IMG/VR virus record: IMGVR_UViG_3300035701_005183 | Location: 1 to 22,264 of that record | DNA from: a virus | Direction: 5' to 3' (one strand) | Length of the DNA stretch: 22,264 nucleotides | Shown here: in pieces, positions 1,629 through 22,264 of the stretch | How the letters are laid out: the number at the start of each line of letters is the position of its first letter | How positions within the stretch are numbered: the first letter of the stretch is position 1 | The notes under the pieces: generated by a model | The model's input: only the letters and a program-made list of their open reading frames with translations | What the model was told of the DNA's origin: nothing | Databases searched by the model: none | Made by a program: the position numbers and the translations under genes

Positions 1629-1637
1629 ACTATTTAT
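1629..1637 (+). promoter_or_regulatory. ACTATTTAT motif upstream of the nucleotidyltransferase gene
   Basis: This is an exact copy of the 9-mer that recurs in the intergenic gaps of this window. Here it begins just after the preceding stop codon and lies 60 nt before the next ATG, further than the 18 nt seen at the head genes. It may be a phage promoter element, or it may only be part of the AT-rich gap. Confidence 0.4.
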
Positions 1638-1649
1638 TTAATATAATAG

Positions 1650-1680
1650 TTGCATAATAGAAGTATTGTGCGTATCTTTA
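1650..1680 (+). promoter_or_regulatory. Candidate Bacteroidota-type vegetative promoter
   Basis: TTG at 1650-1652 is followed, after 20 nt, by TATCTTTA at 1673-1680. This resembles the Bacteroidota sigma-factor pattern of a TTG box near -33 and TAnnTTTG near -7. It sits 17 nt upstream of the ATG at 1698. The last base of the -7 box deviates from consensus, and short AT-rich matches occur by chance. Confidence 0.35.
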
Positions 1681-1697
1681 GGTAAATAGAAAGCAAC

Positions 1698-2607: not shown

Positions 2608-5334
2608 ATGTCAGGAGTAGCAGGAGGAAATAGAATAGAAAGAGGGGATGTACAAGCTACATTCAATAAATACGTAGAAGAAGTTCTAAGTAAAATACTA
2701 GGCTTTAAGAAAGCTTCTCTATCAGGATCTGTAAAAGTAGGTTCGAAAGCCGATTACGGAGATCTAGACATAATTGTATGGTTTGAAGGAGATGATAAGA
2801 GAGAAGTAAAGCAAAGAATTATCGATGCAGCTTTATCTCTTCCACAGAATATAATTGTACCTTTTAAATCAGAAAAGTATACCGGAAGAAGGTACTACAA
2901 TTCAGGAGAACTAATCTCAGTACTTTATCCAATTGTAGGTAAAGAAGACGAATATATACAAGTTGATAATATTATCTCCCTTACTGAAGAAGAACATGCT
3001 TTTAAAGGATCGTTCTTAGACCTACCGGCTGAAAAGCAAGGTATACTAATAGGACTAGCAAAAGTAATTTTATTGGAGCAAGACCTACAAGACGTATTTA
3101 GAAGAATGGGTATTTCAAATATGCCTAAATTGAAGAGAGGAGAAGAGTTTGAATTCAACCTATCATCAGTAAAACTATCTCTTAGAAAAGTACAACTTGA
3201 AGGATTTAAAGAAATAGCAAGAGAAGAGGTATGGTCAACAACAGCTTGGGGAACTATCAAAATACTGTTTCAAGGCTTTAATATAGACGGTTCTTTTGAA
3301 GATTTATTAGATGATGTTGCTAAAAAACTTACAAATACTAGATCTAAAAATAGAATAGCAGGTATCTTTAAATCAATGGTAACTGTTAAATCAGGAGAAG
3401 TAGGAACAGCTAAAGGAAAAGGTAAGGAAGATGCTTTAGAAAAAGTAGCACAAAGACTTTCAGAAGCTTTAGATGACGGATCTGAAGTAGTAGCTCTATA
3501 TGCTGGAGGTTTTAAACCACCACACCTTGCTCACTTTGAAAATGCTAAATTCCTCTCTACTAAAGCAGATAAGATTGTAATCTTTATCGGACCAAAAATT
3601 AGAGAAGGAGTAAAGATTACAGCAGAACAATCAAAAGCAATTTGGGAAATCTATGCAAAGTACATAAACGTACCAATGGAGATTCACATTAGTAAAGTAA
3701 CTCCAATCTTAGACACTTATGAATGGATTGATGCAAATCAAGACAAAGTAACAGAGATTATTACTGGAGCTATGGCTGATGAGATGAAAAAATTCTCAGG
3801 TATAGAAAAAAAGAAACAGCAAGGGGATTACAAAAACGTAGAAGTAAAAGAACTTCCCGTTATTACAAACAAAGAAGATGATAAATTCTCAGCAACTGAT
3901 ATCAGAAAGTCAGAAGAGTTTTTATTATCAGGTAAATGGATTCCTAAAGTAGTATCAAAAGAAGATAGACAAGCAATTGTTGATATCATAGCACCTCAAC
4001 AAGAGGATTCAGTAGAAGATAAGATGTTAACTGCAGTAGATAACGTATTTGAAAGCTTTTTTCCTAAAAAAACTAAGAAAAAAGTAATAAAAGAAGGATC
4101 TTCAGGAACACCTATACAGGCATCAGGTGCTATTCCATCAAAGGATAGAGCAGAACTAACACACCTTTTCAACGACCTAAGAAAGACTATCGATTCAGAT
4201 AAATTTACAGTAGTATTTAATCAGGATAGGATCGACATATACATTAAAACATATTCAGATGTAAGTTTTGACTATACACCATATCAGAAACATTTATCTG
4301 AAGGAGAAGGACAAGAGAAGTTTAACTATACTCCAAAAATAGCATCTATACTAGAGTATATGCTTGATCAGAAGATGAATATCACACCACTTCCAGAGAT
4401 AAAAGTAAGGTATGATGAAGATCAAGCTAACAACTTCTTCGGTAAAACAGCCTACTATGATCCAAACAATCAAGAAGTAGTACTTTTTGTACAAGGAAGA
4501 CATCCTAAAGATGTTTGTAGATCATTTGCACATGAAATGATTCATCATATGCAAAATATAGAAGGACGATTAGGTAATATACAGACTTCAAATACAAACG
4601 AAGATTCACACCTACAGGAAATAGAAGACGAAGCATACTTACAAGGTAATAGAGTCTTTAGAAACTGGGAAGATGGAGTTAAAAATGGTGAATCAAAAAA
4701 AAAAGTTATGGCAGAAGGGAGATACGACAAAATAAGTAACCAAGCATCTTCGGATTTATTTAGAACCTGGAAAACAGGTTACGATGAAGGAGAGAAAAGC
4801 TTAGGATTCGAAGATACTTATTCAAACAACGATGTAGAATTTGATGTAGAAGGGTACTTAATGCTAACACCTGGTACAGGTAAGATGGAAGTATTAGATA
4901 GTACAGGAGCAGGCTTTGATGACGATGGAGATTTTATTATAATAGACCTTGCAATAGATCCAGAACTATTACCAGAATTTTGGGAAGAGATTTCTATGAC
5001 TCTAAAAGATATCTTTAGACATGAAGTAGAGCATCTTACTCACAACATAGGAGGAGTATCCTCTAACCCTGCAAAAGGAATGCGAGGAGATCAAAAGAGA
5101 AGAGATAGAATGAAAGCAGGAGAATTACCTCTAAGCAATTATCTTAAACTTAAGAAAGAAGTAGATGCAATGATTCAAGGAATGCTATTCAGAGCTAAAA
5201 AAGAAAAAAGACCATTTGCAGATGTTGTAAATACCTATTTAAACTCTCAAAACTTTACCCCTGAGGAAATACAATCAATAAAAGCAATATGGCGTAAAAG
5301 ACTACCTGCATTAGGTATAAAACAATCATTATAA
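2608..5334 (+). CDS. Multidomain protein: nucleotidyltransferase + cytidylyltransferase/NMNAT-like + two zincin domains
   Basis: A 908-residue protein with at least four modules. Residues ~15-200 hold a second nucleotidyltransferase signature (G40-S41, then DYGDLDI with D52 and D54). Residues ~294-440 look like an HxGH-superfamily cytidylyltransferase: AGGFKPPHLAH (299-309) and FSATDIR (427-433), the pair seen in NadD/NMNAT-type adenylyltransferases. Residues ~500-700 contain a zincin motif HEMIH (642-646) with a downstream EDEAY. Residues ~704-908 contain another, HEVEH (805-809), followed by LTH. The joints at 494-497 (IKEG) and 701-704 (MAEG) follow Lys-rich stretches and resemble prohead-protease sites. 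The function as a whole is unknown. The NMNAT-like part may adenylylate NMN or another nucleotide; the zincins may cleave host or phage proteins. Confidence 0.78.
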   Translation: MSGVAGGNRIERGDVQATFNKYVEEVLSKILGFKKASLSGSVKVGSKADYGDLDIIVWFEGDDKREVKQRIIDAALSLPQNIIVPFKSEKYTGRRYYNSGELISVLYPIVGKEDEYIQVDNIISLTEEEHAFKGSFLDLPAEKQGILIGLAKVILLEQDLQDVFRRMGISNMPKLKRGEEFEFNLSSVKLSLRKVQLEGFKEIAREEVWSTTAWGTIKILFQGFNIDGSFEDLLDDVAKKLTNTRSKNRIAGIFKSMVTVKSGEVGTAKGKGKEDALEKVAQRLSEALDDGSEVVALYAGGFKPPHLAHFENAKFLSTKADKIVIFIGPKIREGVKITAEQSKAIWEIYAKYINVPMEIHISKVTPILDTYEWIDANQDKVTEIITGAMADEMKKFSGIEKKKQQGDYKNVEVKELPVITNKEDDKFSATDIRKSEEFLLSGKWIPKVVSKEDRQAIVDIIAPQQEDSVEDKMLTAVDNVFESFFPKKTKKKVIKEGSSGTPIQASGAIPSKDRAELTHLFNDLRKTIDSDKFTVVFNQDRIDIYIKTYSDVSFDYTPYQKHLSEGEGQEKFNYTPKIASILEYMLDQKMNITPLPEIKVRYDEDQANNFFGKTAYYDPNNQEVVLFVQGRHPKDVCRSFAHEMIHHMQNIEGRLGNIQTSNTNEDSHLQEIEDEAYLQGNRVFRNWEDGVKNGESKKKVMAEGRYDKISNQASSDLFRTWKTGYDEGEKSLGFEDTYSNNDVEFDVEGYLMLTPGTGKMEVLDSTGAGFDDDGDFIIIDLAIDPELLPEFWEEISMTLKDIFRHEVEHLTHNIGGVSSNPAKGMRGDQKRRDRMKAGELPLSNYLKLKKEVDAMIQGMLFRAKKEKRPFADVVNTYLNSQNFTPEEIQSIKAIWRKRLPALGIKQSL
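4695..4704 (+). repeat. A10 homopolymer at a domain joint
   Basis: Ten consecutive A residues lie inside the 908-aa reading frame, immediately before an in-frame ATG (4708) that begins the second zincin module. Such a run could allow transcriptional slippage, or could mark an old gene-fusion point. A-rich codon use here makes long A runs less surprising. Confidence 0.6.
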
Positions 5335-6511: not shown

Positions 6512-6538
6512 ACTATTTATTTTTAAACAGTAAATAGT
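6512..6538 (+). promoter_or_regulatory. ACTATTTAT motif within a perfect inverted repeat
   Basis: ACTATTTA (6512-6519) is matched by its exact reverse complement TAAATAGT (6531-6538), separated by 11 nt. The left arm is the recurrent intergenic motif of this window. The gap opens the small basic protein gene, whose ATG is at 6548. The pair could be a promoter with operator symmetry, two opposed promoter elements, or a weak hairpin. Confidence 0.5.
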
Positions 6539-6547
6539 CTATAACTT

Positions 6548-6691
6548 ATGGCAAAAGTAAAATCAGCTCCTGCAGCAACTAAAACAGTAACAGTTAAAGT
6601 ATCAAGACCTGGAGTTCATGCAAAATGTAAAACCTCTTCTTTAAAGAGTTCTAAAAACTATAGAAAGCTTTATAAAGGACAAGGAAGATAG
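6548..6691 (+). CDS. Small basic protein, 47 aa
   Basis: This short gene runs from an ATG at 6548 to a TAG at 6691 and encodes 47 residues. It is rich in Lys, Arg and Ser, with the stretches VSRPGVHAK and KNYRKLYKGQGR. It fills the space exactly: the next gene starts 1 nt after its stop. I recall similar short basic proteins with RPGxHAK and a GQGR ending in marine T4-like phages, none with a known role. Its charge suggests nucleic-acid binding or neutralisation of packaged DNA, which is inference. It has no membrane segment. A single cysteine occurs near residue 27. Confidence 0.68.
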   Translation: MAKVKSAPAATKTVTVKVSRPGVHAKCKTSSLKSSKNYRKLYKGQGR

Positions 6692-8033: not shown

Positions 8034-8068
8034 TAGAATAAAAGAAAATAAATTCATATCTTTAGAAG

Positions 8069-10306
8069 ATGGTAAAATACACTAAATTACAGCTTTCAAA
8101 AAAACTACTTCAAGTAGAATCAGCAATTGATACTTTAAGAAAAACTCAATATACGAAATCTAAACAAGGATTAGTTCAAGAGCAAATTAAACGATTAAAG
8201 GAAGCAAAAAGTAACCTTGCAGGATTATTAAAAGAGGAAATGACACCGGCTGAAGCACAAGCTAAGAAATCTAGTATAGCACTTCAACAGGAGAAAATAA
8301 AAGATGCTACAAAACAACTTCAAACAGCAAAATCTCCTTTAGAGAGAAAAGCAGCACAAGATGCTTTAGTAGCAGCAAAAGAAAACCTAGCAAAAGCAAC
8401 ATCAACACAAGAGAGTATATCAGAAGAAACTAGAAAGTATACTACAGAAGAATCTGCAGCAGTAGGTAAAGCAGTAGCTAAGTCTCTTTTAAAAGTTCTT
8501 AGAGCAGAAGGAGATGAAGTAGTGAATCTAAAGCTAACAGGACTAGGTGTAGATAGGTTTAATATTAGTGTTGAATATGGAAATGATAGAGGTAGAGACA
8601 CCTTTAAATTTAATCTAAACCCAGAAGGAACAGCAATCATATTAGATTTAGGAAACGAACCGATGGAACTAGTAGACTTTGTGATAACACAGGGTAATAC
8701 TGTCTCTCTACCTGCTCCTGAATTAGAAGATAAACTAAGTGATGCGATGAAAAAGTACGTTGGAGAACCATCGGATAATGAGTATGACCAAATGGCTGCA
8801 ATGGAGCCAGAATCAGATCCTTCTCAGATGAATAAATACATTTCAGAAGAAATGATAGAGGAAAGAGCTTTTAATATAACTGGATTAGGTACTTTTGAAT
8901 TCACAGGGATGAAAGACGGTTTAGTTATGGGATCTCAAAACAATGGACCTGTTAGAACTTTTAAAAAAGAAAGAGTTTTACAAGATAACCCAAGCTTTTT
9001 TGACAGACAGCCAAGAGAGAAAAAACCTCAAGGAGTTCGTCCCTATTCAGAAGCACAGTATAGAAGAGTATTACAAGGAGCAATCGATGATGCAGGTAGT
9101 ACAGAGTTTGCATACGATATAGCAGAATCTATGATATTAGATCCTCAAATCTTAGCTAGACTTGCAAAAGACTACCCAGGAGAATCAGCAAGAAAATTAC
9201 AACAAAGACTTCAATGGGATTTAGAAGCTTGTGATTCACCAGAAGATGATTATGATGATGATGATGATTACGAAGTAGCAGAACAAATCAACGAAGATGA
9301 TTATTTACAATCAGATGATGAATCTTCAATGGCTAAATCACAATTAAAATCTATTCAATCAAATGCAAGTAAGTTGATGAATATAATTGGAGATGATGAG
9401 CAATTAGATGCTTGGATTCAATCTAAGTTAACAAAAGCAGAAGATTATTTAGATGCAGCAGCAGGATATTTAGAATCAGAAGAAGATAAAGAAGGTCGAG
9501 CACCTATAACACTTGCAGTAGCATTAGACGAAGAGAAAGGAACTTGTTGTCATAAATGCGGACACGTTCATGTAAAAGGAACAGCACACCCTACCCCATA
9601 TTTAACAGGTAAGAGTAGTTGTAAGTTTAGAAAGAACGAAGCATTAGATGCAGTTGGAAAAGAAGATGACGATATCAATAATGATGAAAAAGTTGATAAA
9701 ACAGACAAGTATTTGAGACATAGAAGAGATGTTGTTTCTAAAAAAATAACTAAAGAAGAAGTACAAGCTCTTATGCTTGAAGCATATGTTGAAGTTCTTA
9801 GAGAGGAAGAAAATGCAGTATTAGAAACATCTTCAGATGAAATACTGGGAAAATTTCCTACAGTTAAAAAAACGATAGTATCACTATTCACACAAGAATA
9901 TAAGGAGTTTGTAAAAGATGTAAAATGGGTAGCACCTAAACCTTCTACATTTTCAGTAGAACTTGCCAACGGTCAATCATTTAATTTAAAATGGATGGGT
10001 AAAGGATTCGAAGCACAGATAGAAGGTAAGAAGTATTTCTTAAACGATCTTCCAAACTACCAACAAGCCTTGGATAAGATAAACGATATTCTTAAAAACG
10101 GACCGATTACAAATGGTGAAGAACCAGGAGGAGAGGAGTTCGGAGCAGGAGCAGCAACAGAACCAGCAGCCGGAGGCGGAGGTGGTGGAGAATTTCCAGG
10201 CGGAGAAGCCGGAGGAGAAGCAGCACCTGAATTTGGAGCAGAAGAAACACCAGCAGCAGGTGAAGAAGCAGCAGGTACAGAACCTGAAACACCTGAAGCA
10301 CTTTAA
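8069..10306 (+). CDS. Large mosaic protein with coiled coil, zinc site, dockerin-like Ca loop and Gly/Ala/Glu-rich tail
   Basis: A 745-residue acidic protein made of modules joined by acidic linkers. Residues 1-120 are Lys/Gln/Ala-rich and likely coiled coil. Beta-rich modules follow (~130-235 and ~265-310). A helical module begins [10 protein letters not shown] (421) and includes [10 protein letters not shown] and AEDYLDAA. A cysteine/histidine cluster (C493, C494, H495, C497, H499, H501, C518) may bind zinc. A loop with D535, N537, D539, K541, D543 and D546 matches the dockerin/EF-hand spacing 1-3-5-7-9-12, followed by KYLRHRR. The last ~60 residues are Gly/Ala/Glu-rich. I recall the QLDAWIQ and DxNxD...YLxxRR modules from marine T4-like phage virion-region proteins. 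Its location and modularity suggest an internal head protein. The gene starts 35 nt after its neighbour. Confidence 0.68.
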
Positions 10307-11303: not shown

Positions 11304-11312
11304 ACTATTTAT
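11304..11312 (+). promoter_or_regulatory. Candidate late promoter motif ACTATTTAT, 18 nt before ATG
   Basis: This exact 9-mer continues as ATAA-type sequence and ends 18 nt before the ATG at 11331. The same motif and the same 18-nt spacing occur upstream of the portal gene and of the gene after it. Confidence 0.55.
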
Positions 11313-11330
11313 AAACAAAAATAAAACACA

Positions 11331-12194
11331 ATGGCAGATAATTTTAATTTAAGATCATTCTTAACAGAGAATAAACTTACAAAAAACGCAAAACTTCTTT
11401 CAGAAGGAGTAGAGTTTAACGGAAAACCAGTAGATGTTAGTTCAATCGAAATCGACGGAATAGACACAGAGGACTATCCAGACTTTGTAGATGCATACAT
11501 TATTGCAGCAGATTACGAAGATGGTACTCCATTAACAGATGACGAATTACAAGAACTTGAAGATCAAAATTACGGATTGACTAGTGAACTAATTCACGAT
11601 AGACAGCTTTACCTACAAGAAAAGAAGGAAGAATCTTGGGAAGAAGGAGTAGAAGAAGCTATACAAGAAAGTAGATTAACTGCTAACGAAAAACGTTTAG
11701 TAGAAATAGTAAACAAAGCTCTGAAAGAAGAAGAGAATGTAGACTATACAATGGGTCGTCAAGATGATCCAAATCAACTACCAAACCCGGCACCAGAATT
11801 GAATATCCCAGAAGGAGAAGAAAGCATTGAAGAAGTAAAACCTCTTCCAAAATACAATTCAATTGAAGAATTAATGAAAGAGATTGAGCACGGGACTAAC
11901 GAAGCAGCTCATAAATACAAAATGGATGAGATGAAAAGAGTTTACGAAGCACTAGAGGCTAAAGTAGGGTCTTTAGAAGAAGGAGAACATGCTGAACATA
12001 TTGATCAAAAAGCTGTTAAACAAATGCGTAAAGATATTGCAGCATTAAGAAAGGCAGAAGAAAAATTAAGAAAAGAATTTGATAAAAAATTCACAGGTAA
12101 AGAGAAAAAAGAAACGTCAGCTAAAAAAGAAACAGTAGAAGCTTTACAAGAAGGATTTGACTTAAGAAAATTCTTAGCAGAAAACAGAAAATAA
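11331..12194 (+). CDS. Acidic internal-head-like protein with matching N- and C-terminal motifs
   Basis: A 287-residue, strongly acidic protein. The N-terminus has FNLRSFLTENK and the C-terminus has FDLRKFLAENRK, two near-copies of one short motif at opposite ends. Residues ~27-95 form a module with IDGIDTEDYPDFVDAYI and GTPLTDDELQEL that I recall from marine T4-like phages, function unknown. The rest is Glu/Lys-rich and probably coiled coil (ALEAKVGSLEEGEH to KLRKEFDKKF). Several (L)xE-G/N sites (LTE at 11-13, LSEG at 23-26, LQEG near the end) look like prohead-protease sites. It ends just before a strong terminator and precedes the terminase gene, so it closes the accessory block. A prohead core or internal protein role is my inference. 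Confidence 0.65.
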   Translation: MADNFNLRSFLTENKLTKNAKLLSEGVEFNGKPVDVSSIEIDGIDTEDYPDFVDAYIIAADYEDGTPLTDDELQELEDQNYGLTSELIHDRQLYLQEKKEESWEEGVEEAIQESRLTANEKRLVEIVNKALKEEENVDYTMGRQDDPNQLPNPAPELNIPEGEESIEEVKPLPKYNSIEELMKEIEHGTNEAAHKYKMDEMKRVYEALEAKVGSLEEGEHAEHIDQKAVKQMRKDIAALRKAEEKLRKEFDKKFTGKEKKETSAKKETVEALQEGFDLRKFLAENRK

Positions 12195-12213
12195 AATTAC
12201 TAGATAATTAGAT

Positions 12214-12243
12214 AAGCCCACCCTATAAAGGTGGGTTTTTTTA
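12214..12243 (+). terminator. Rho-independent terminator after the accessory block
   Basis: Stem CCCACC (12217-12222) pairs with GGTGGG (12230-12235) around a 7-nt loop CTATAAA, followed by a run of seven T. AAG before the stem can pair with the first Ts. It is almost identical to the terminator at 19033-19057. Confidence 0.9.
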
Positions 12244-12251
12244 TATCCACA

Positions 12252-12258
12252 TATTTAT
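12252..12258 (+). promoter_or_regulatory. Candidate late promoter motif TATTTAT, 18 nt before ATG
   Basis: TATTTAT ends 18 nt before the terminase ATG, the same spacing as the full ACTATTTAT copies; the two preceding bases differ. It lies directly after a terminator, where a new transcription start is expected. Confidence 0.5.
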
Positions 12259-12276
12259 AATATATACTTATATAAT

Positions 12277-13851
12277 ATGCCACAACAAGATATCAAACAA
12301 ATAGTTGCACAAGAGTACATAAAGTGTGCAAAAGACCCGGCCTACTTCATGAAGAAGTATTGTTACATTCAACATCCAACTAGAGGTAGAATATTATTTA
12401 ACCTTTATCCATTCCAGGAAGGAGTGTTGCATTTATTCAGAGATGAAAAGATGTTAATAACTCTAAAATCAAGACAGTTAGGAATTTCTACACTAGCCTC
12501 GGCCTACGCTCTATGGTTAATGATCTTCCATAAAGATAAAAACGTACTAGCACTTGCGATTACACAAGCAACAGCTAGAAACCTTGTAACTAAAACGATT
12601 TTCATGTATGAGAATCTACCAAAATGGTTACAATTACCTTTTACAGAAAAGAATAAGTTATCTCTTAGACTTAAAAACGGTTCTAAAATAACAGCTAAAT
12701 CATCTAATGCAGATGCTGCTCGTTCAGAAGCAGTATCACTACTGTTAATAGATGAGGCAGCCTTTATTGATAATATTGAAGAAACCTTTACAGCAGCACA
12801 ACAAACCCTAGCAACGGGTGGTCAGTGTATGGCACTATCAACACCAAATGGTGTAGGTAATTGGTTTCATAAAACATGGGAAAGAGCAGAAGCAGGAGAG
12901 AATGGATTTGTACCTATTAAATTAAAATGGGATGTGCATCCGGAAAGACAACAAGACTGGAGAGATGAACAAACAAGACAATTAGGAGAGAAACATGCTG
13001 CTCAAGAGTGTGACTGTGATTTCATGTCATCCGGAGACTCAGTAATCGAAGTTGAGAATATGGCTTTCTATGAAGAGACATATGTAAAAGAGCCAATGGA
13101 AAAGAGAGGGGTAGATGGAAATCTCTGGATATGGGAATCACCTGACTATAATAAGTCATATATGGTAGTTGCAGATGTCGCTAGAGGGGACTCTACTGAT
13201 AACTCTGCATTCCATGTATTCGATATAGAAACTTGTACGCAAGTAGCAGAATACAAAGGTAAGATATCTCCTAAAGAATACGGAAACGTACTAGTAGGAA
13301 TAGCAACAGAATACTGCGATGCATTACTGGTAGTAGAAAATGCAAATATAGGATGGTCAACCATTGAACAAATACTATCAAGAGAATATAAAAACCTATA
13401 CTACTCATCAAGATCGGATACTGAAACAGTCGAATCTTATATGGCCAAGTATGAAAGAGATAAATTAGTACCAGGATTTACAATGTCTCTTAAAACAAGA
13501 CCTTTAGTTATTGCTAAGATGACTGAATACGTAAGAGAGAGATCAGTAATACTGCAGTCTAAGAGGTTATTAGGAGAGATGAGAGTATTCATATGGAGGA
13601 ATGGAAAAGCACAAGCACAGTCGGGGTATAATGATGATTTAGTTATGTCTTTTGCTACAGCTTTATATGTTAGAGATACTGCTATCCGTATGAGACAGCA
13701 AGGAATGGATCTTTCTAGAGCTACAATGTCTTCTTTTGTTAGTCTTAATCAAAGAAATACAGGAGTATATAACGTTGCTCCTATGCAGAATAATCCGTAT
13801 CTTATGGAAACACCGGGTGGCCAAGAAGACTTAAGCTGGCTATTAGGATAA
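12277..13851 (+). CDS. Terminase large subunit, T4 gp17-like
   Basis: A 524-residue protein that powers DNA packaging through the portal and cuts concatemeric DNA. The N-terminal ATPase has a Walker A-type SRQLGIS (65-71), Walker B LLLIDE (155-160, D159, E160) and coupling motif STPNG (188-192). The C-terminal RNase H-like nuclease has D300 in VVADVARGD, E354 in LVVEN and D453/D454 in YNDDLV. T4 gp17 is 610 aa, so this is a shorter but complete form. It follows a terminator and a candidate promoter, and the portal gene follows after 30 nt. No small terminase gene is recognisable just upstream; the preceding gene encodes an acidic modular protein. Assignment is firm. Confidence 0.96.
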   Translation: MPQQDIKQIVAQEYIKCAKDPAYFMKKYCYIQHPTRGRILFNLYPFQEGVLHLFRDEKMLITLKSRQLGISTLASAYALWLMIFHKDKNVLALAITQATARNLVTKTIFMYENLPKWLQLPFTEKNKLSLRLKNGSKITAKSSNADAARSEAVSLLLIDEAAFIDNIEETFTAAQQTLATGGQCMALSTPNGVGNWFHKTWERAEAGENGFVPIKLKWDVHPERQQDWRDEQTRQLGEKHAAQECDCDFMSSGDSVIEVENMAFYEETYVKEPMEKRGVDGNLWIWESPDYNKSYMVVADVARGDSTDNSAFHVFDIETCTQVAEYKGKISPKEYGNVLVGIATEYCDALLVVENANIGWSTIEQILSREYKNLYYSSRSDTETVESYMAKYERDKLVPGFTMSLKTRPLVIAKMTEYVRERSVILQSKRLLGEMRVFIWRNGKAQAQSGYNDDLVMSFATALYVRDTAIRMRQQGMDLSRATMSSFVSLNQRNTGVYNVAPMQNNPYLMETPGGQEDLSWLLG

Positions 13852-13854
13852 GTT

Positions 13855-13863
13855 ACTATTTAT
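13855..13863 (+). promoter_or_regulatory. Candidate late promoter motif ACTATTTAT, 18 nt before the portal ATG
   Basis: The 9-mer ends 18 nt before the ATG at 13882. Here it continues to form the 12-nt palindrome TATTTATAAATA (13857-13868), which also contains the T4 late promoter sequence TATAAATA (13861-13868). Confidence 0.58.
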
Positions 13864-13881
13864 AAATAAAACATTTTCAAA

Positions 13882-15738
13882 ATGGCAGAAAGAAATTTAT
13901 TCTCCAATTTACAGAGATTATTCTCAAGCGACATACTAGTTAGAAACGTAGGAGGAGACGAGTTAAAGATTGCTGACATCAATCATATTCAATCAACAGG
14001 GAAGTATCAAACCAATTCACTATTGGATAGATTCTCCCGACTATATATTTACAATAATAAAAATATATTTAATCCAAACCTTAATTACCAAACACTTAGG
14101 GTACAGCTTTACTCAGATTACGAAGCAATGGATACAGATGCATTAATAGCTTCTACTCTAGATGTATTAGCAGATGAATCTACACTGAAGAATGCAATGG
14201 GAGAGGTTCTTTCCATTAAATCTACAGATGAAAATATACAAAGAGTCCTTTATAACCTTTATTACGATGTATTAAACATCGAATTTAACCTATGGTCATG
14301 GGTTAGAAATATGTGTAAGTACGGGGACTTCTTTTTAAAATTAGAAATATCAGAACATTTTGGAGTTTACAATGTACTTCCGTATACGGTTTACCATATG
14401 GTAAGACATGAAGGGATGGATAAGGAAGATCCAACTAAAGTAACATTCTCAATCGATCCAGACGGATTAGCTTCTTCAGCAGATCCAAATTATATTCCAA
14501 ACAATAGTAAATCAGTAATTACTCTAGACAACTACGAAGTAGCACATTTTAGATTACTATCAGATACAAACTACCTTCCATATGGTAGATCTTATATTGA
14601 ACCAGCTAGAAAAATTTACAAACAACTAACTTTAATGGAGGATGCGATGTTGATTCATAGAATCATGAGAGCTCCTGAAAAGAGAATGTTCTACATCAAT
14701 GTAGGATCTATTCCACCAAATGAAGTTGAGCAGTTTATGCAAAAAACTATCAATAGTATTAAGAAAACTCCATACGTGGATCCACAATCAGGCCAATACA
14801 ACTTGAAGTTTAATATGCAAAACATGATGGAGGATTTCTACCTTCCAGTTCGTGGAGGAGATACTTCAACTCGTATTGAAACAACTAAAGGATTGGAGTA
14901 TGATGGTACCACAGATATTGAATACTTAAGAGATAAGATGTTTGCTGCTTTAAAAGTGCCAAAAGCATATTTTGGATACGAAAAAGACCTTACAGGTAAA
15001 GCAACTCTTGCAGCAGAAGATATTCGTTTTGCTAGAACAGTAGAAAGATTACAGAGAATTGTAGAAAGTGAATTAACTAAAATTGGTTTAGTGCATTTAT
15101 ATTCTCAAGGATTTGATAAAGAGTCTTTAGTAAACTTTGAAATTAAGTTAACAACTCCTTCTATTATTTATGAGCAAGAAAAAATAGCTCTTTGGAAAGA
15201 GAAAGTTGATTTAGCAACTCAAATGCAAGCAACTAAATTATTCTCTTCAGATTATATCTACGATATGGTATTTGATGTATCAGAGGATAAGTATAATGAG
15301 ATGAGAGATCTTATTAGAGAAGATGGTAAGAGAGCATTTAGATTATCTCAAATAGAAAACGAAGGAAACGATCCAGTAACAACAGGGCAATCTTTTGGAA
15401 CACCTCACGATTTAGCTTCAATATATGGAAGAGAGCAAGGTGAATTACCAGCTGGATACGACGAGAATGTACCTGTAGGAAGGCCTAGAGAAAAAATGTC
15501 AGTGATAGGAACCAACGCAGACCCGGTTGGTGGAAGAGATAGACTAGGAGTACATGGAATGAAAGGTGGATTTCCAAGTGATAATGAGAATGTAAGAGAA
15601 GGTATGAATAATACAATGTCAGTTTTCCTTAGAAATAAGAATATCTTTCCTACTAAAAAGCAAAATATCTTTGAAGAGGAAGTAGAAAAAGAATCAGATC
15701 TCTTAAATGAAGAGAATATTAAAGATTTAGATAACTAG
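13882..15738 (+). CDS. Portal (head vertex) protein, T4 gp20-like
   Basis: A 618-residue protein that would form the dodecameric portal at the packaging vertex, through which terminase pumps DNA and to which the tail attaches. Family features seen: an N-terminal region with RLYIYNNKN and YSDYEAMDTDALIASTLDVLADE, a wing region with YIEPARKIYKQLTLMEDAMLIHRIMRAPEKR split over 220-270, and GGDTSTRIETTKGL followed by DIEYLRDKMFAALKVPKAYFGYE, typical of gp20. T4 gp20 is 524 aa, so this one is longer, mainly by a C-terminal tail rich in Glu, Asn and Lys after about residue 500. Directly downstream of terminase, as in T4 (apart from missing tail genes). Confidence 0.95.
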   Translation: MAERNLFSNLQRLFSSDILVRNVGGDELKIADINHIQSTGKYQTNSLLDRFSRLYIYNNKNIFNPNLNYQTLRVQLYSDYEAMDTDALIASTLDVLADESTLKNAMGEVLSIKSTDENIQRVLYNLYYDVLNIEFNLWSWVRNMCKYGDFFLKLEISEHFGVYNVLPYTVYHMVRHEGMDKEDPTKVTFSIDPDGLASSADPNYIPNNSKSVITLDNYEVAHFRLLSDTNYLPYGRSYIEPARKIYKQLTLMEDAMLIHRIMRAPEKRMFYINVGSIPPNEVEQFMQKTINSIKKTPYVDPQSGQYNLKFNMQNMMEDFYLPVRGGDTSTRIETTKGLEYDGTTDIEYLRDKMFAALKVPKAYFGYEKDLTGKATLAAEDIRFARTVERLQRIVESELTKIGLVHLYSQGFDKESLVNFEIKLTTPSIIYEQEKIALWKEKVDLATQMQATKLFSSDYIYDMVFDVSEDKYNEMRDLIREDGKRAFRLSQIENEGNDPVTTGQSFGTPHDLASIYGREQGELPAGYDENVPVGRPREKMSVIGTNADPVGGRDRLGVHGMKGGFPSDNENVREGMNNTMSVFLRNKNIFPTKKQNIFEEEVEKESDLLNEENIKDLDN

Positions 15739-15740
15739 AC

Positions 15741-15749
15741 ACTATTTAT
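15741..15749 (+). promoter_or_regulatory. Candidate late promoter motif ACTATTTAT, 18 nt before ATG
   Basis: The exact 9-mer occurs in the 29-nt gap after the portal gene and ends 18 nt before the ATG at 15768. Confidence 0.55.
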
Positions 15750-15767
15750 AACAAAGACATACCTAAG

Positions 15768-18256: not shown

Positions 18257-18835
18257 ATGAACAATTTATTAATAAATGTAACTCCTTTCAAAGGAATGCT
18301 TACCGAATCAAAGGTTAAACCAGGTGTATTTGAAGTATCAGGAATAATGCAAAGAGCAGGAGCTAAAAACCAAAACGGAAGAATCTACAAAAGAGAAATT
18401 CTTGAACAAGAAGTTCAAAATTATATAGAGAATTTTGTAAAGGTAGGAAATGCTTACGGAGAATTAGATCATCCAGAATCAGCAATCGTATCTTTAAAAA
18501 ATGCTTCACACGTAGTAAAAGAACTTTGGTGGGAAGGGCAGGATCTTATGGGAAAATTAGAATTACTAAATACCCCATCTGGTAACATTGTGAAAGAGAT
18601 TGTTAGAGCTGGACACACTATAGGAATCTCATCAAGAGGGACAGGATCAGTAACACAGACAAATGAAGGAACTCTAATGGTACAGCCGGATTTCGAGTTG
18701 GTTTGCTGGGATTTTGTAAGTAACCCATCAACACAGGGTGCATTTATGAATGCAATTTCTTTAAACGAAGGAAAACAAACAGTAGGAAAATACGATAGAT
18801 TAGATTCTATCATTAACAATATATTAAGAGCATAA
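18257..18835 (+). CDS. Prohead maturation protease, T4 gp21-like
   Basis: A 192-residue serine protease of the phage prohead protease group. Visible features are GELDHP with H72, and GISSRGTGS with S125/S126, the His and Ser of the T4 gp21 family; DFVSNPS (152-158) is also typical. The protease sits in the scaffold core of the prohead and cleaves scaffold, capsid and internal proteins after (L/I)xE. It carries matching sites near its own ends: MLTE-S (14-18) and LNE-G (169-172), fitting self-removal. T4 gp21 is about 212 aa, so the length is normal. The gene's stop codon overlaps the next ATG by 1 nt, and it lies two genes upstream of the capsid gene, as expected. Confidence 0.93.
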   Translation: MNNLLINVTPFKGMLTESKVKPGVFEVSGIMQRAGAKNQNGRIYKREILEQEVQNYIENFVKVGNAYGELDHPESAIVSLKNASHVVKELWWEGQDLMGKLELLNTPSGNIVKEIVRAGHTIGISSRGTGSVTQTNEGTLMVQPDFELVCWDFVSNPSTQGAFMNAISLNEGKQTVGKYDRLDSIINNILRA

Positions 18836-19031: not shown

Positions 19032-19057
19032 ACCCACCCCATAAAGGTGGGTTTTTT
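19032..19057 (+). terminator. Rho-independent terminator after the protease operon
   Basis: Stem CCCACC (19033-19038) pairs with GGTGGG (19046-19051), loop CCATAAA, then six T. Stem and loop are nearly the same as in the terminator at 12214-12243. Confidence 0.9.
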
Positions 19058-19183
19058 ATGTTTTGAAAATATATGTATATTTATTTAAGAATATATCACG
19101 ATCCTTATGTGATATCTACTACAAAGTAAAACACTATTACGCTACTACTTAATAAGCGTACGACAATCAAAAAACAAATTAAA
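19058..19183 (+). promoter_or_regulatory. Gene-free leader before the scaffold gene with promoter-like motif and two inverted repeats
   Basis: I see no gene in this stretch. TATTTAT at 19078-19084 resembles the recurrent intergenic motif but lies 99 nt before the ATG. Then comes a 7-bp inverted repeat (ATATCAC 19093-19099 / GTGATAT 19109-19115) and a 6-bp one (TACGCT 19138-19143 / AGCGTA 19155-19160). If transcription starts near the motif, the scaffold/capsid mRNA would have a structured leader of about 90 nt. Confidence 0.5.
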
Positions 19184-20707: not shown

Positions 20708-22264
20708 ATGGAATTAAATCAATTATTCGAAGGTACCAGTAACTATAAGACTTTACAAGCTGACGCAGCTCGTTTGTCTGGTAAATGGGCCAAATCAGGT
20801 TTGTTAGAAGGAATTTCTAACGAAATCGAAAGAAACAACATGTCTATGATTCTTGAGAATCAAGCAAAACAAATTGTATCTGAAGCTTCTCAAACAGGTG
20901 GTGGTGCGATTGGAACTACAAATGGAAACACAGGTACAGGTGCTGAGCAGTGGGCTGGAGTAGCTTTACCATTAGTACGTAAAGTATTCGCTCAAATTGC
21001 AGCTAAAGATTTTGTATCTGTACAACCAATGAACTTACCATCAGGTCTTGTATTTTACTTAGACTTTAAATACGGTACAGGTACAGCAGGATTCGCAAAT
21101 AATGACAACCTTTACGGTAACGTTTCTACAGCTAACGACAAAATGTTAGTTGACGAAGAAGTATCAGGAGGTCTTTATGGAGCAGGTAGATTCGGTTATT
21201 CAATTAACTCTGCATCAGCTACTCCAAGTGCTATCACGCACACTTCAGCTACCTCAGCTTCTATCGGTTACCAGGACGGTCTTGCACCAGCATCTTTTAA
21301 AGTTGTACCAGTCGGTACAGGGAGTTTATCTGGAGCTGACTTTAAAGGCGTTAGAGCTTTTAGATTATTCTCTGCATCTTTAGACATTACAACTAACCCA
21401 GAGCTTACAGCTTATTCATCATCAGCAGCTGGAGAATTCGTAGTATTTGTAACAAGTGGTCTTGGAGCAGCAGCAACAGTTACTGCAACTATAAAATACC
21501 AAGTTCAACCAACTGATCAAACAAGAGGTGATTTTGAAGATAATACAACTAACACACCAATTAAGATTCCTGAAATCAACGTATCACTTGCTTCTGAAGC
21601 AATCGTTGCTAAAACAAGAAAATTAAAAGCACAATGGACTCCAGAATTCGCACAAGATCTTAACGCTTACCACTCAATTGATGCTGAGGCAGAATTAACT
21701 TCATTATTATCAGAGTACATCTCTATGGAGATTGACTTAGAATTAATGGATATGTTAATTCAAGATGCAGCTACAACTGAAAGATGGTCAGCAGCAAACA
21801 ACAAAACTTGGACTGGAACAGCTTGGACAACTCAAGCATCTGTTTTCTATAACACTCAAGGTCAATGGTTCGGAACTTTAGGTACTAAAGTACAAAAAGT
21901 ATCTAACAAAATTCACCAAAAAACTTTAAGAGGTGGAGCTAACTTCTTAGTATGTTCTCCAACTGTAGCTACAATCCTTGAATCAATTCCTGGATATGCA
22001 GCAGATACAAACGGTGATAAAATGGACTTTGCAATGGGAGTTCAGAAAGTAGGTAACTTAAATTCTCGTTTCAGAGTTTACAAAAACCCTTACATGACTG
22101 AAAACGTAATCTTACTAGGTTACAGAGGATCTCAATTCTTGGAAACAGGTGCAGTTTATGCTCCATATATTCCATTAATCATGACACCTCTAGTATACGA
22201 TCCAATTACCTTCACTCCAAGAAAAGGTATCATGACTCGTTATGCTAAGAAAATGATCAGACCA
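20708..22264 (+). CDS. Major capsid protein, T4 gp23-like, 3' truncated by the window edge
   Basis: 519 residues are visible in an open frame from ATG 20708 to the last base; the C-terminus lies beyond the window. Features of the gp23/HK97-fold family are QWAGVALPLVRKVFAQIAAKDFVSVQPMNLPSG (about 82-114, the T4 'LVRR...DIVGVQPM' region), LKAQWTPEFAQDLNAYHSIDAEAEL, and, near the end, TPRKGIMTRYAKKM. The N-terminal arm contains IVSE-A (56-60), a likely gp21 cleavage site comparable to the T4 cut after residue 65. The protein builds the hexamers of the head. It follows the scaffold gene by 24 nt with no promoter motif, so it is probably co-transcribed. T4 gp23 is 521 aa, so little should be missing. 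Confidence 0.96.
   Translation, partial: MELNQLFEGTSNYKTLQADAARLSGKWAKSGLLEGISNEIERNNMSMILENQAKQIVSEASQTGGGAIGTTNGNTGTGAEQWAGVALPLVRKVFAQIAAKDFVSVQPMNLPSGLVFYLDFKYGTGTAGFANNDNLYGNVSTANDKMLVDEEVSGGLYGAGRFGYSINSASATPSAITHTSATSASIGYQDGLAPASFKVVPVGTGSLSGADFKGVRAFRLFSASLDITTNPELTAYSSSAAGEFVVFVTSGLGAAATVTATIKYQVQPTDQTRGDFEDNTTNTPIKIPEINVSLASEAIVAKTRKLKAQWTPEFAQDLNAYHSIDAEAELTSLLSEYISMEIDLELMDMLIQDAATTERWSAANNKTWTGTAWTTQASVFYNTQGQWFGTLGTKVQKVSNKIHQKTLRGGANFLVCSPTVATILESIPGYAADTNGDKMDFAMGVQKVGNLNSRFRVYKNPYMTENVILLGYRGSQFLETGAVYAPYIPLIMTPLVYDPITFTPRKGIMTRYAKKMIRP

Follow-up and report, generated by a model that had tools for sequence, protein, structure and literature searches.

Introduction

The late promoters of phage T4 consist of a lone 8-bp box, TATAAATA, read by gp55, gp33 and gp45, with no -35 element and an AT-rich segment downstream. 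The first T of the T4 box lies at -13 (PMC2988020); within gp55, Y97 stacks on A-12 and H95 contacts A-9, with A-12 and A-8 as deep-pocket adenines (PMC7892883). The cyanophages S-PM2 and Syn9 have NATAAATA, likewise a lone box of T4 type ahead of late genes, and some cyanophage genes carry early and late promoters in tandem (PMC2984593). For the Far-T4 phages, an earlier study detected no T4 transcription regulators and left the transcription programme open (PMC4360716), which a diverged factor would explain. Here we analyze 22,264 bases from a T4-like phage (IMG/VR virus record IMGVR_UViG_3300035701_005183, positions 1 to 22,264; hereafter the window) and an element with the core TATTTAT that recurs upstream of its genes. 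Comparative sequence analysis makes it very probable that this box, TATTTATA, serves as late promoter in a large clade of phages of marine Flavobacteriia and relatives that are distantly related to T4, and that a phage-encoded sigma-like protein, gp118, reads it.

The window has a G+C content of 34%, carries nearly all of its genes on the plus strand, as are all window features described below, and contains terminase, portal, protease and major capsid genes. Its closest isolate is Flavobacterium phage vB_FspM_immuto_2-6A (NC_055915; hereafter immuto), with 94% identity in the terminase and 75% in the capsid, and Rhodothermus phage RM378 is a remote relative (37%). Such phages are abundant, with at least 600 matches each to the portal and the sigma-like protein.

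Results

Placement of the box

TATTTAT ends exactly 18 nt ahead of the ATG codons at 11331, 12277, 13882 and 15768, as the first-pass annotation had observed, and the full ACTATTTAT is present at three of these four sites (11304, 13855 and 15741). In extended form, the box reads ACTATTTATA before gene 11331 (11304..11313), the portal gene (13855..13864) and gene 15768 (15741..15750), and TATTTATA before terL (12252..12259). Noncoding DNA makes up only 569 of the 22,264 bases (2.6%). By count alone TATTTAT is not enriched in the window (15 copies, 13.2 in shuffled sequence), so that only positional tests were used. In these the arrangement greatly exceeds chance: of the eight copies on the plus strand, seven fall in noncoding DNA (null mean 0.43, binomial p 6e-11), a Markov model of the window gaps yielded a mean of 0.43 copies and a maximum of 4 in 2,000 runs, and fourfold identical spacing occurred in none of 5,000 null sets. 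The window observation is thus real.

The enrichment upstream of start codons extends across the immuto genome (160 kb), where TATTTAT occurs in 32 of 116 upstream gaps of at most 60 nt; 300 simulations gave a mean of 3.9 and never more than 9, and the antisense control gave 9. Three further genomes, with portal proteins 74-93% or sigma proteins 80-88% identical, gave 32/111, 38/110 and 35/129 gaps (antisense 7, 4 and 18). When 76 sites were aligned on the box, constraint extended beyond the seed, with A or C at -1 relative to the box (0.45, 0.53), A or T at +7, A at +11 (0.87) and +12 (0.80), and A-rich positions from +8 to +18. No base was conserved over the 35 nt upstream of the box in these sites, and there was no -35 signal. 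The element is [A/C]TATTTAT[A/T]A..AAA, without a -35 element. The T4 sequence TATAAATA was rejected as the true box: on the plus strand the window matches it exactly just once, at the portal site (13861-13868), as noted at first pass, and immuto has few, with TATAAATA in 6 of the 116 gaps versus TATTTATA in 23.

The 18-nt distance, exact at the four window sites, is merely modal among relatives. Box-to-ATG spacing there has a mode of 17-18 nt and a range of 14-45 nt (14-32 nt for the portal gene, 17-45 nt for gene 15768), and genome-wide it is about 11-31 nt at most sites. A fixed 18-nt rule was thus rejected in general.

Conservation and dependence on operon starts

Eighty related loci were collapsed to distinct upstream sequences for an orthologue test. 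A box was present upstream of the portal gene at every distinct locus (69/69), upstream of gene 15768 in 68/68 and upstream of gene 11331 in 9/11; the 18-nt gap at gene 11331 is present in immuto as well. In contrast, genes that directly follow another gene lack it: 0/61 for gene 16619, 0/39 for the protease gene at 18257, 0/36 for gene 10319 and 0/30 for the capsid gene. Because the relatives share ancestry, these counts are not independent events, and the contrast with adjacent genes is their informative part.

The terminase gene provides a natural experiment. In the window, its box lies directly past an intrinsic terminator (CCCACCCTATAAAGGTGGGTTTTTTT, 12217..12242) that ends the upstream unit. 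Among relatives, terL has the box in 16/61, including those that keep the gap and a GGTGGG-T7 terminator, and the box is absent where the gene abuts the upstream reading frame. For this gene the box is therefore tied to the gap and terminator.

A more distant phage, Mel-JY01 (PP395634), whose recorded host is a cyanobacterium, encodes a sigma-like protein 36% identical to gp118 and carries the same box in 10/28 gaps (antisense 1). By a simple pattern, Shine-Dalgarno-like sequences precede 28/42 of its genes, compared with 20/233 in immuto and 0/22 boxed immuto genes. All 10 boxed Mel-JY01 genes have such a sequence nearer the ATG, with six boxes 33-37 nt from the start codon. Together with the absence from operon-internal genes and the behaviour of terL, this indicates that the box marks transcription units rather than start codons.

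Two promoter classes

In immuto, 24 genes are preceded by TTG-N-TATATTTAG, close to the Bacteroidota primary-sigma promoter consensus TTTG/TAHHTTTG (PMC6847099). Nearly all of them lie in a small-gene cluster at 61-76 kb, mostly with the promoter 23-27 nt from the ATG, whereas the late boxes are concentrated at 79-160 kb (24/35 vs 2/24, Fisher p 3e-6). This second, host-type class (TTG-N-TANNTTTAG) marks the putative early gene cluster, lateness being judged by gene function. The late box TATTTATA differs from the Bacteroidota promoter in lacking both the TTTG end of the TAHHTTTG -7 element and a -33 element.

In each genome, no more than one or two boxed genes have a host-type promoter as well. 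In immuto, the two classes stand in tandem before 106221, the counterpart of window gene 1698, and at 114006. The window pair consists of a late box, ACTATTTAT (1629..1637), as the upstream half and a host-type promoter, TTG-N20-TATCTTTAG of the Bacteroidota -33/-7 type (1650..1681; consensus from PMC6847099), resembling the tandem promoters of cyanophages. This tandem arrangement accounts for the different spacing of the 1629 copy. Elsewhere in the window, a TTGCAAATAG...TATCTTTAG pair at 8034-8068 stops a few nucleotides short of the ATG at 8069, which would mean either a leaderless mRNA or a true start further downstream.

A candidate cognate sigma factor

The gp118 gene of immuto (78174-78872) is annotated as 'hypothetical'. 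It was found, as were its counterparts in relatives, by the gp55 profile phrog_234 and by Sigma70_r2, and the family spans at least 600 viral contigs. The phrog_234 matches are weak (E 4e-4 to 0.008; 4/34 family members at E up to 0.1), and Sigma70_r2 matches 16/34 members at the same limit, with a best E of 0.0017. BLAST-type and PDB-sequence searches with the family returned no sigma match, so the sigma link rests on family profiles and structure. Structural neighbours of an AlphaFold2 model of gp118 are mostly sigma region-2 chains, including T4 gp55 (7d7c_F; Z 9.4 over 129 residues); Foldseek alone gave no match with E under 0.001. By these methods, gp118 is predicted to have a sigma region 2 fold.

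In a profile-profile comparison, the gp118 family and gp55 align collinearly starting at residue 1 (E 0.0085). The alignment pairs gp55 Y97 with an invariant Tyr and H95 with Phe or Tyr, and the late box retains A-12 and A-8 and is altered at -10/-9. This residue-to-box correspondence is suggestive, not proof. The LDFLY-type C-terminal clamp motif of gp55 is absent from gp118 and replaced by a helical domain of ~95 residues, which was modelled in isolation with a pLDDT of 89 and has no clear structural relative (best Z 5.2). Profile searches of immuto and three relatives, which may miss remote homologues, revealed no gp45, bacterial DnaN or PCNA; as a positive control, the gp45 profile recovered T4 itself at 3e-86.

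The position of the gene is equally conserved. In 4/4 genomes it has the host-type promoters on one side and the boxed region on the other, and a box occurs within 90 nt past its stop codon in 71/71 distinct loci and before its start in 0/69. This gene order fits an early-made factor that switches on what follows.

Other box copies and features of the window

The additional TATTTAT copies reported at 1629, 6512 and 19078 all exist. The 6512 copy (ACTATTTAT, 6512..6520) lies 27 nt before the start codon of a small basic ORF at 6548 (47 aa) that the first-pass annotation had missed, and the 27-nt gap is identical in immuto. The box at this site, ACTATTTA, is also half of a perfect 8-bp inverted repeat spanning 6512-6538 (ACTATTTA-11 nt-TAAATAGT), which recurs in immuto at 111027 and in the window precedes the 47-aa ORF.

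The 19078 copy (19078..19084) is a doubtful box, as it lies inside a possible 18-aa ORF, is poorly kept in relatives and has a counterpart before gene 19184 in only 1/28 of them. It belongs to a ~100-nt leader (19058-19183) that runs from an intrinsic terminator downstream of the protease operon (CCCACCCCATAAAGGTGGGTTTTTT, 19033..19057) to gene 19184. The possible ORF in this leader reads MYIYLRIYHDPYVISTTK, and the leader has a close counterpart in immuto at 125506.

The boxed terminase large subunit (12277..13851) and gp20-like portal (13882..15738) genes are followed in the window by a gp21-like head maturation protease (18257..18835), within an operon and without a box, and a gp23-like major capsid protein (20708..22264), also without a box. 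Further upstream, 2608-5334 encodes a 908-aa protein with an adenylyltransferase-like part (NadR according to the immuto annotation) and no PHROG match. It contains two HExxH-type motifs, AHEMIHH and RHEVEHL, and is possibly a fused enzyme with metallopeptidase parts. In immuto, a queuosine-pathway gene set together with DpdA at 18607-37015 suggests 7-deazapurine-modified DNA.

Discussion

The proposal of a late promoter, made from the window alone at first pass, is well supported by positional enrichment, conservation in dozens of relatives and dependence on operon starts, and further by an early promoter class that lies apart from the boxes and by a candidate cognate sigma factor. The description of this promoter as a new type was overstated. 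Its box differs from T4 TATAAATA at 2/8 positions, the two central changes lying at -10/-9 (TAT-TT-ATA here, TAT-AA-ATA in T4), and the lone-box architecture is retained. The best reading of the sequences is a diverged T4-type late promoter working in a gp55-like mode, rather than a new class.

In the mechanism that we favour, the host RNA polymerase, directed by its primary sigma factor, would first transcribe the early cluster from Bacteroidota-type promoters (TTG-N-TANNTTTAG). An operon at the end of this cluster would then yield the small phage sigma factor, gp118 in immuto and its relatives, which on the host core polymerase would open TATTTATA boxes. These boxes begin right after the gp118 gene and precede most of the structural and lysis transcription units. 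The promoter would comprise the lone box [A/C]TATTTAT[A/T] at the -10 position and an A-rich initiation region, with no -35 element. If the first T is taken as -13 by analogy to T4, so that the box occupies -13 to -6, the downstream AAA would fall at -2 to +1 and RNA would start ~6 nt downstream of the box. The predicted leaders at the four window sites would be ~12 nt long (for gene 11331, a start at ~11318-11319), and such leaders would be workable because the hosts use no Shine-Dalgarno sequences (PMC6847099).

Several observations weigh against this model. The gene for the major capsid protein has no box (0/30). A few boxes lie 1-5 nt from an ATG as annotated, too close for RNA to start 6 nt past the box unless these start codons have been misassigned. 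Scores of the sigma-like protein stay under the Pfam threshold, confidence in the model of the whole protein is only moderate (pLDDT 75, pTM 0.49), and middling Z values can arise from helical folds. LR756508 encodes a sigma-like protein with 40% identity, yet TATTTAT occurs in 1/43 gaps over 50 kb; with no clear box in that stretch, it was rejected as a further example.

The strongest competing explanation is that the box is read by host polymerase carrying either an alternative sigma factor of the host or a host sigma modified by the phage, gp118 having some other function. The link between gp118 and the box is drawn from sequence, and LR756508 has the protein and no clear box in the stretch examined, both of which leave room for this explanation. 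It appears unlikely, however, given that the same box and a gp118 orthologue occur together in Mel-JY01, a phage with Shine-Dalgarno-like sequences and a cyanobacterium as recorded host, that host-type promoters form a separate class, and that a sigma-region-2 protein sits exactly between the early and late units. Much less probable is that these intergenic elements are AU-rich sites of RNA processing or decay, or that they serve a phage regulator as operators. The element is indeed AU-rich, plus-strand biased and intergenic, but its fixed A-rich downstream pattern, its site right after terminators and its near-exclusion from host-type promoters favour a promoter, and an operator would need a second promoter nearby, which the host-type class supplies at just one or two boxed genes per genome.

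The first-pass annotation had also raised the possibility that the element helps to start translation in hosts that do not rely on Shine-Dalgarno sequences; such an mRNA-level signal would account for the 18-nt spacing. Spacing does cluster at 17-18 nt for two conserved genes, and Shine-Dalgarno sequences are lacking in the hosts (PMC6847099). We nevertheless regard this role as unsupported and highly improbable, because operon-internal genes lack the box throughout (0/61, 0/39, 0/36, 0/30), terL loses it once the gap closes, spacing ranges from 14 to 45 nt, and in Mel-JY01 the box stands upstream of the Shine-Dalgarno-like sequences. Chance copies in AT-rich intergenic DNA would agree with the ordinary window total of TATTTAT, but are refuted by every positional test and by the 69/69 and 68/68 distinct upstream sequences, leaving this explanation a negligible probability.

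The proposed late promoter shares much with described systems. As in T4, the box precedes head, tail and lysis genes, and the phage encodes a sigma-region-2 protein; the differences are the altered box, the replaced LDFLY motif and the lack of any gp45-type, bacterial-type or PCNA-type clamp detectable by profile. Cyanophages differ in keeping the AAATA core and in encoding gp33 and gp45. RM378 has an upstream motif, TTATTTAA (TATTTAA), in 23/55 gaps, with a high antisense control (10) that stems partly from divergent gaps. The motif shares TATTTA with the box described here and differs in having TATTTAAA in place of TATTTATA; RM378 also has a weak gp118-like ORF (E 5.8e-4). As an observation in its own right, TTATTTAA(A) upstream of many RM378 genes is a candidate late box of a thermophilic phage. 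Literature searches found no paper describing the RM378 motif, none joining TATTTATA with a late promoter and phage, and none joining Far-T4 with a promoter and sigma factor.

We tentatively suggest, as a possibility well short of probable, that the Far-T4-like clade has a single-protein, clamp-independent late sigma that combines a gp55-like region 2 with a new C-terminal domain, which may replace gp33 and the sliding clamp, and that the box sequence changes along with its factor (TATTTATA in the window, TATTTAAA in RM378). Should no clamp take part, late transcription would be free of the coupling to replication that T4 shows.

These findings give Far-T4-type phages a late box, a class of early promoters and a candidate for the cognate sigma factor. 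The protein that most likely reads the box is listed in public records only as 'hypothetical protein'. With these elements, transcription units become predictable in many uncultured phages, and the co-evolution of sigma factor and box becomes testable.

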